A stretch of DNA of 64,000 nucleotides from Pseudorhodobacter sp. (lineage in GTDB: Bacteria; Pseudomonadota; Alphaproteobacteria; Rhodobacterales; Rhodobacteraceae): NCBI GenBank assembly GCA_024642045.1, contig JAHEBX010000002.1, positions 1 through 64,000 on the forward strand, read 5' to 3'. Made by a program: the position numbers and the translations under genes. Position 1 is the stretch's first letter. Every line of letters begins with the position of its first letter. Under the pieces are notes generated by a model. The model was not told the DNA's origin, ran no database searches, and was given only the letters and a program-made list of their open reading frames with translations. Shown piece after piece: positions 51,058 to 53,155 of this stretch.

Positions 51058-52229
51058 GCCAGGGCTGCGGTCAGTTCTGCGATCAGATCACCTGCATCTT
51101 CCAAGCCGACCGACAGGCGGATCAAGCCGCCCGTGATGCCCAGCACATCCTTTTGCGGCTGTGGCAGGCGCTGGTGGGTGGTGGTGGCGGGATGGGTCGC
51201 GATGGTTTTGGCATCACCAAGGTTGTTGGAAATCTTGATGATATCCAGCGCGTTACAGAATTTGAACGCGGCTTCTTTGCCGCCCTTTATCTCAAAGGTT
51301 ACAAGTGTGCCGCCCGACCCCATCTGCGCCATCGCCAACCCATGCTGGGGGTGTGAGGCAAGTCCGGGGTAGATCACTTTGGACACGGCAGGGTTGCCAG
51401 CCAGCGCAGTTGCAATTTTCAGCGCCGAGTCGGCCATCGCGCGGCAGCGCAAATCCAGCGTCGCCATGCCGTTCAGCATAATCCACGCGGTAAAAGGGCT
51501 CATCGCGGCGCCGGTGTGCTTGAGGTAAGGCTCGGCCACTTTGCGCACAAAGTCGCGCGTGCCGCAGATCACCCCGCCCAACGCACGACCCTGCCCGTCA
51601 ACGTGTTTGGTCGTCGAATAGACCACGACATCCGCGCCTTGCTCGACCGCGCGCGAAAAGATCGGCGTGGCAAAGACGTTATCGACGATAACAAGCGCAC
51701 CATGCGCATGGGCGATTTCGGCGACCGATTTGATGTCGACCAATTGCAGCGTGGGGTTCGACATGGATTCGAAGAACACGGCCTTGGTCGCGGGGGTGAT
51801 GGCTGTGCGCCATTGGTCCAGATCATCGCCATCGACAAAGGTGACATTGACGCCGTAACGGGTCAGCACCTCTTCCAGGATATAGAGACACGAGCCGAAC
51901 AGCGCCCGCGAGGACACCACATGGTCGCCTGCGCGCAGCATCGAGGTCAGCGCGCCGTTGACCGCGGCCATCCCCGAAGCGGTGGCGAAAGCGTCCTCAG
52001 TGCCCTCCAGGGCCGCAATACGCTCTTCGAACATGCGGGTGGTGGGGTTGCCATAGCGGGCATAGATGAATTCATCATCACCCGCCTTGATAAAGCGTTC
52101 TTCGGCAGATTCGGCCGTGGGATAGGCGAAGCCCTGCGTGAGAAAAATCGCCTCGGCCATCTCACCGTATTGGCTGCGCCGGCTGCCTTCGTGCACGAGC
52201 TTCGTGCGGGTTTTCCAGTCTTTTGTCAT
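51054..52229 (-). CDS. metZ: O-succinylhomoserine sulfhydrylase
   Basis: TKLVHEGSRRSQYGEMAEAIFLTQGFAYPTAESAEERF; YSTTKHVDGQGRALGG PLP-lysine region. Confidence 0.92.
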   Translation of the reverse strand: MTKDWKTRTKLVHEGSRRSQYGEMAEAIFLTQGFAYPTAESAEERFIKAGDDEFIYARYGNPTTRMFEERIAALEGTEDAFATASGMAAVNGALTSMLRAGDHVVSSRALFGSCLYILEEVLTRYGVNVTFVDGDDLDQWRTAITPATKAVFFESMSNPTLQLVDIKSVAEIAHAHGALVIVDNVFATPIFSRAVEQGADVVVYSTTKHVDGQGRALGGVICGTRDFVRKVAEPYLKHTGAAMSPFTAWIMLNGMATLDLRCRAMADSALKIATALAGNPAVSKVIYPGLASHPQHGLAMAQMGSGGTLVTFEIKGGKEAAFKFCNALDIIKISNNLGDAKTIATHPATTTHQRLPQPQKDVLGITGGLIRLSVGLEDAGDLIAELTAALA

Positions 52230-52246: not shown

Positions 52247-52280
52247 AAAGAAAAGCCCCGAAACCAAGAGGATTCGGGGC
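52247..52280 (-). terminator. Intrinsic terminator in the metZ leader (riboswitch expression platform)
   Basis: Minus strand GCCCCGAA-TCCTCTTGGT-TTCGGGGC-TTTTCTTT, upstream of metZ ATG. Confidence 0.88.
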
Positions 52281-52283
52281 ATA

Positions 52284-52344
52284 AACCCTGACCTCTTTAG
52301 CGGTTTATTTAACGTGGCCCGCAATCGGGTAACAAAGCGCCACG
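52284..52344 (-). ncRNA. SAM-II riboswitch aptamer
   Basis: P1 CGTGGC...GCCACG; L1 GCTTTGTTACCCGATTGCGG; core TTAAATAAACCGCTAAAGAGGTCAGGGT; matches the SAM-II pattern AUUGC...GCUAAA. Confidence 0.88.
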
Positions 52345-52350
52345 GGCGAG

Positions 52351-52379
52351 GGGATACTCTGCGTCAAAGCAAAGGTCAA
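52351..52379 (-). promoter_or_regulatory. Promoter of the metZ riboswitch transcript
   Basis: Minus strand TTGACC - 17 bp - TATCCC, placing +1 at the first bases of aptamer P1. Confidence 0.65.
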
Positions 52380-52380
52380 C

Positions 52381-52425
52381 GGGGATCAGGTCGGAGGGGA
52401 TCAGGTCGGAGGGGATCAGGTCGGA
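52381..52425. repeat. Three perfect tandem copies of GGGGATCAGGTCGGA (15 bp)
   Basis: Direct reading; spans the stop codon of the CDS ending at 52416. Confidence 0.97.
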
Positions 52426-53039
52426 ATGCCGTGGCCGTCTTGCACGGTTCGGATCAGCGCGGTGCGCACCATGTTGGAGAGAAGCGGCAGCAGGCCAAAG
52501 TACAAAAGCCATGTGCTTTGCGTCGCGTTCTGGATCAGGGTTTCGTTCGCCAGCACCATCGCGAGGTTATAGACAGCCAAAGCCCGCGTCATCATCGCAT
52601 CGGTGGGGCGCATGAAGGGTTCGGGGAAGCGGCGCTTGACGATGCTATAGCCACCGTCGATCACGTCGATGACATAAAGTGCGGCCGCGACTAGGAAATA
52701 GCCGCTGAGAAAGCGCTGACACAGATAGGGATCGGCTTTGAACGCCAATATCGCCAACAGACCGGGGCCACAGACCATCACCAACATCGTCGTCGCAGGC
52801 CCCGAAAAATGAGCGCGGGTTCGGGTTATCAGCTTGTTTGACTTCAATGCAAGCCTCAGCGCGGTCGCCAGCACAAAAGCGGTCATGAAGGCTGTGGCTT
52901 CGTCATTCAGCCAGATACGCAGTAACGGCCAAGCGATCAGGATCACCAACCCGGGAACGAGGATTTCCACATCGAAGGCCGCCGAGCGGCGCAGGGTGTG
53001 AAAGAGCTGCTGCGCATTTGCGATGGTCTGGTCGAACAT
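52416..53039 (-). CDS. Multi-TM membrane protein, distant YciB-like paralogue
   Basis: Starts MFDQTIANAQQLFHTLRR; ALAVYNLAMVLANETLIQNATQSTWLLYFGLLPLL resembles the YciB C-terminal region. Confidence 0.7.
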   Translation of the reverse strand: MFDQTIANAQQLFHTLRRSAAFDVEILVPGLVILIAWPLLRIWLNDEATAFMTAFVLATALRLALKSNKLITRTRAHFSGPATTMLVMVCGPGLLAILAFKADPYLCQRFLSGYFLVAAALYVIDVIDGGYSIVKRRFPEPFMRPTDAMMTRALAVYNLAMVLANETLIQNATQSTWLLYFGLLPLLSNMVRTALIRTVQDGHGIPT

Positions 53040-53155
53040 TCTGCCTCCGGAGCTGTCTGAGCGGCCAATCTGGGGCAGAATGAGTGTCATCTATAGACCG
53101 AAGTGTGGCGCAAATGCGTTATTATGCGCGCATTCGGAAAAACACTGTTTCCAGA

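Follow-up and report, generated by a model that had tools for sequence, protein, structure and literature searches.

A candidate antiterminator in the SAM-II riboswitch leader of metZ in Pseudorhodobacter sp.

In the window analysed here (the whole stretch of 64,000 nucleotides), the metZ gene of Pseudorhodobacter sp. is preceded by a SAM-II riboswitch, which raises the question of how an aptamer of this class might govern the gene behind it. A promoter just before the P1 stem and terminators after the aptamer were described for SAM-II in 2005 (PMC1273637), and such promoter-aptamer-terminator units are standard in alphaproteobacteria. A survey of 2007 found terminators in alpha- and betaproteobacteria to accompany SAM-II more often than any other class, by an unproven mechanism (PMC2258182); a review of 2024 has SAM-II acting by occlusion of the ribosome-binding site (PMC10907184). 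We found no sequence-level antiterminator for SAM-II published in the open literature, the supplement of PMC9373788 aside, and nothing on SAM-II in the TaRTLEt RNA-seq paper; no claim to priority is made. What this analysis would add is a concrete and testable antiterminator assignment for SAM-II, supported by comparison among relatives.

The riboswitch unit ahead of metZ

The sequence-only reading had claimed a complete SAM-II unit controlling metZ and had proposed a search with the Rfam model RF00521 as a check. This search matched the full-length model with 63.6 bits (E = 5.8e-12) against a gathering score of 36 bits, and the metZ leader is the only match in the genome (3.49 Mb). The coordinates given for the unit proved exact and each of its elements was found (Table 1). 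The leader possesses the P1 stem, the P2 pseudoknot and the conserved core (GUUAAA, GCUAAA-GAGG) of the class, and the downstream gene belongs to methionine/SAM biosynthesis; its protein scores 532.7 bits against TIGR01325, above the curated cutoff of 510.05, so that the name metZ is correct. The leader resembles Rfam SAM-II (Corbino et al. 2005, PMC1273637) in its P1 and pseudoknot consensus, in its methionine gene target, in the promoter right before P1 and in the putative terminator ahead of the open reading frame, while L1 is slightly shorter than in the consensus and contains ACCCGA where relatives mostly have ACCGGA, a difference that leaves the class unaffected. Judged from its sequence, it is a typical, well-preserved SAM-II riboswitch of a known class, ordinary for alphaproteobacteria, and its RNA presumably binds SAM.

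Table 1. Elements of the metZ leader and their positions in the window
Feature	Position	Strand	Basis
SAM-II unit (promoter, aptamer, terminator)	52379-52247	-	all named elements read in sequence
-35 hexamer TTGACC	52379-52374	-	homologous leaders
-10 hexamer TATCCC (weak consensus)	52356-52351	-	homologous leaders
SAM-II (SAM_alpha, RF00521) aptamer	52353-52276	-	Rfam match, model 1-79 complete
P1 5' strand CGTGGC	52344-52339	-	sequence
L1	52338-52319	-	sequence
Probable pseudoknot P2a 5' strand ACC	52330-52328	-	partner GGT 52293-52291
Pseudoknot P2b 5' strand GCGG	52322-52319	-	partner CCGC 52303-52300
P1 3' strand (P1') GCCACG	52318-52313	-	sequence and Rfam alignment
Aptamer 3' strand AAGAGGTCAGGGT, also candidate antiterminator 5' strand	52297-52285	-	alternative fold and own-versus-foreign tests
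Candidate antiterminator 3' strand GCCCCGAATCCTCTT (terminator 5' arm and loop)	52280-52266	-	folding
Intrinsic terminator hairpin, 8-bp stem GCCCCGAA/TTCGGGGC and inner CC/GG	52280-52255	-	folding, homologues
T tract TTTTCTTT	52254-52247	-	sequence
metZ, O-succinylhomoserine sulfhydrylase, 391 aa	52229-51054	-	TIGR01325

Comparison was made with SAM-II leaders of relatives, 145 from the family and genus and 29 from the class, all drawn from the better-scoring matches, so that the set may be tidier than the whole family. The aptamer was found in all 15 genomes of the genus, in 241 of the 298 genomes sampled from the family and in 70 of 143 sampled across the class. A metZ-like gene start follows it in every one of the 145 family and genus leaders, and the median distance between aptamer start and metZ in the family leaders is 126 bases. 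This bears out the earlier remark that SAM-II ahead of sulfhydrylase genes is known from alphaproteobacteria; in Rhizobiales and Rhodobacterales the core regulon consists of SAM_alpha before the sulfhydrylase gene, there called metY (PMC4239095). The P2b pairing of GCGG with CCGC is present in 124 of the 145 leaders, and most of the remainder have compatible pairs; the P2a strands are probable, being assigned from likeness to the SAM-II consensus. Second RF00521 matches in two congeners (L147, L148) score about 28 bits, below the cutoff, and lie within dnaK, in its coding part; they were dismissed as chance matches.

The promoter hexamers are separated by 17 bases, as the sequence-only reading had it. 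A simple consensus scanner reported neither promoter nor terminator in this sequence, missing the promoter because TATCCC matches just three of six consensus bases and the terminator because its 10-base loop exceeds the limit of eight. With a weak -10 that the scanner passes over, the promoter call rests on conservation: at least five of the six bases of TTGACA are matched in the -35 region of 136/145 homologous leaders, against 10/145 shuffles, and the TA of the -10 stands at -11 to -14 from P1 in 128/145, with the -35 offsets tracking it. The commonest offsets among the 145 leaders place the start at or beside P1, and transcription likely begins, on the evidence of this spacing, at or next to the first base of CGTGGC. 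Directly upstream of the promoter, at 52425-52381, a 15-base unit, GGGGATCAGGTCGGA, is present three times without a mismatch, and this array looks like a recent slippage duplication; the first copy (minus strand) includes the stop codon of the upstream open reading frame at 52416-53090. Beyond an open reading frame with no NCBIfam match, the upstream neighbour is an IspZ-like septation protein; downstream of metZ lie a GNAT acetyltransferase and FolE2.

Between aptamer and open reading frame lies the intrinsic terminator, whose 8-bp stem and T tract had been named in the earlier reading. With a folding energy of -18.0 kcal/mol, the hairpin leads into the T tract TTTTCTTT, from which 17 bases separate the metZ ATG at 52229; an inner CC/GG pair leaves approximately four free bases in the loop. 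Hairpins of -10 kcal/mol or better with a T tract occur in 126/145 family leaders, against 33/435 shuffled regions (7.6%). The scan returned no terminator at this threshold in the other 19 leaders, one of which (L033) was apparently missed only for an interrupted T run. Four metZ leaders of the family (L058, L060, L061 and L089) have a good aptamer but yielded no terminator ahead of the gene, and may be under translational or other control.

Two competing folds and a proposed mechanism

The sequence-only reading had also noted that CCTCTT in the terminator loop can pair with AAGAGG in the aptamer core, and had suggested that this match, of only 6 bp, may take part in switching. The six pairs exist (minus strand, 52297-52292 with 52271-52266), but they are merely the outer stem of a longer hairpin, AAGAGGTCAGGGTTTATGCCCCGAATCCTCTT, of 12 bp and -13.3 kcal/mol, in which the core, running to 52285, continues through inner TC/GA and GGGT/GCCC pairs (AAGAGGTC.GGGT / GCCC.GA..CCTCTT). 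This hairpin takes up the greater part of the terminator's left side, together with the aptamer strand needed for P2 around SAM; because it shares these strands it can coexist neither with the terminator nor with the pseudoknot that holds SAM, and is taken to be an antiterminator. The complementarity and its role in switching are thus supported, though not as a loop contact of the formed terminator. On paper the two folds exclude one another, and the elements of which they are built are conserved.

In prefix-by-prefix folding, with a program that does not score the pseudoknot, the antiterminator is the minimum free energy structure from about 76 to 88 nt and the terminator from 90 nt, coinciding with completion of the terminator right arm. 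For the full-length transcript without SAM the terminator fold is better by 7.3 kcal/mol at equilibrium, so that switching must be kinetic, during transcription.

We put at roughly 85% the probability that this riboswitch is a transcriptional OFF switch for metZ, acting through a choice between antiterminator and terminator. Transcription would start at P1. With little SAM present, the aptamer 3' strand (AAGAGGUCAGGGU) would pair with the nascent terminator 5' arm and loop (GCCCCGAAUCCUCUU) to form the antiterminator, and RNA polymerase would read on into metZ. With SAM abundant, this strand would instead be tied up in the P2 pseudoknot that surrounds SAM, leaving the terminator 5' arm free; the terminator would then form, a transcript of approximately 98 nt would be released and metZ would be off. 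We infer both the direction and the size of the SAM response.

Conservation of the core-loop pairing

A hairpin with this function should keep its pairing where its sequence changes. The core differs among relatives (examples are AAAGAGGTC, AAAAGGGTC, AAAGAGGGT and AAAAGGTCA), and the loop changes in step, with AAGGG/CCCTT in L133, AAAAGG/CCTTTT in L134, AAAGGG/CCCTTT in L136 and AAAGAGG/CCTCTTT in L011 and L121. The loop CCTCTT, whose conservation had been put forward as a test, is therefore not kept as a sequence, but its complementarity to the core of its own leader is, and the suggested covariation of AAGAGG with CCTCTT is borne out, more weakly under some definitions of the segments than others. 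The mean energy of own core with own loop is -6.05 kcal/mol, against -5.17 with swapped partners (permutation, z = -9.0); the terminator 3' arm, taken as a control, shows no own-partner effect (z = +1.4).

Since relatives are not independent, partners were also exchanged among disjoint pairs of nearest relatives, defined by MetZ distance. Here the own partner was better in 24 cases and the swap in 6 (p = 0.0007), a best p-value that is not to stand alone, the segment definitions having been chosen by us. The core10 x loop definition gave 25 to 11 (p = 0.014), the whole hairpin 31 to 20 (p = 0.08), and definitions including the generic, G/C-rich 5' arm 20 to 12 (p = 0.11) and 24 to 18 (p = 0.22). 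Under random pairings among near relatives the own partner was favoured in 77% on average; the genus alone offers four informative pairs, too few to tell. Whole hairpins have -13.9 kcal/mol with their own partner and -11.3 with foreign ones, yet foreign partners still reach at least four core-terminator pairs in 84% of cases, so that part of the complementarity is generic. The candidate antiterminator hence shares bases with aptamer and terminator and appears to be maintained by compensating change, to a degree that among nearest relatives depends on definition; the support for selection on the core-loop pairing is good but not overwhelming.

Alternative readings and related systems

The loop-side result, where co-variation is strongest (24 to 6), would also suit a kissing contact, in which the CCUCUU loop of an already formed terminator pairs with AAGAGG in the aptamer core over the 6 bp available and disturbs SAM binding. 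In the formed terminator, however, the loop CC is paired with GG, leaving about four bases free, and the core strand pairs on into the terminator 5' arm (TC/GA, GGGT/GCCC), to the exclusion of the terminator; the antiterminator reading expects the nascent RNA to contain AAGAGGUC...GGGU/GCCC..GA..CCUCUU. Such a contact would, moreover, arise only after the decision to terminate, and we regard it as very improbable. Another account, which we judge hardly more probable, has the terminator work independently of the aptamer: SAM would act chiefly through the stability of the RNA, and the complementarity would simply follow from base composition. In Sinorhizobium meliloti, metZ RNA is reported to be stabilised in a SAM-dependent manner (PMC9373788), and foreign partners pair well too; against this account stands the own-partner advantage, seen in both permutation and nearest-relative swaps and missing from the 3' arm.

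Likewise very improbable, in our estimation, is control of translation through a ribosome-binding site that the aptamer contains and occludes, as is the case for metX and metA leaders, the terminator providing constitutive attenuation. The core GAGG serves other SAM-II leaders as a Shine-Dalgarno sequence (PMC10907184; PMC9373788), and S. meliloti metA indicates that a distant one can still matter, which makes a secondary contribution possible. In the present leader more than 60 bases, a strong terminator among them, separate GAGG from the metZ ATG downstream, and the median of 126 bases between aptamer start and metZ in the family again argues against this account. The leaders of metX and of Agrobacterium tumefaciens and S. 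meliloti metA have the same aptamer, but the GAGG described there as a ribosome-binding site here belongs to the candidate antiterminator strand. That family metZ leaders reuse this strand as an antiterminator 5' strand, with core and loop co-evolving, seems to us fairly probable; if true, it would give SAM-II a defined transcriptional expression platform that has been little described until now. The comparative leader set shows which bases to change in order to separate antitermination from occlusion of the ribosome site.

A close known counterpart of the antiterminator-terminator switch proposed here is the metZ leader of S. meliloti, from another family of the same class, with which it shares its target gene and a predicted SAM-dependent terminator. 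There an RNA of about 100 nt (sRNA RZ) accumulates at high SAM and termination is predicted (PMC9373788); the transcript predicted here is 98 nt.

Two groups of leaders depart from the common pattern. Leaders L142-L146, of the same genus, have a divergent L1 (GCTTTATTCCGAATTGCGG) and the core GAGGGTC or AAGGGTC and score only 41-48 bits; this subgroup nonetheless keeps a terminator and a matching antiterminator, and its aptamers might serve as a test of altered affinity for SAM. In L048, L095, L034 and similar leaders, read by eye, there is an apparent second type of antiterminator, in which GGTCA of the aptamer is matched by TGACC or TGGCC in the terminator loop, with CGAAAG/CTTTCG flanks in some.
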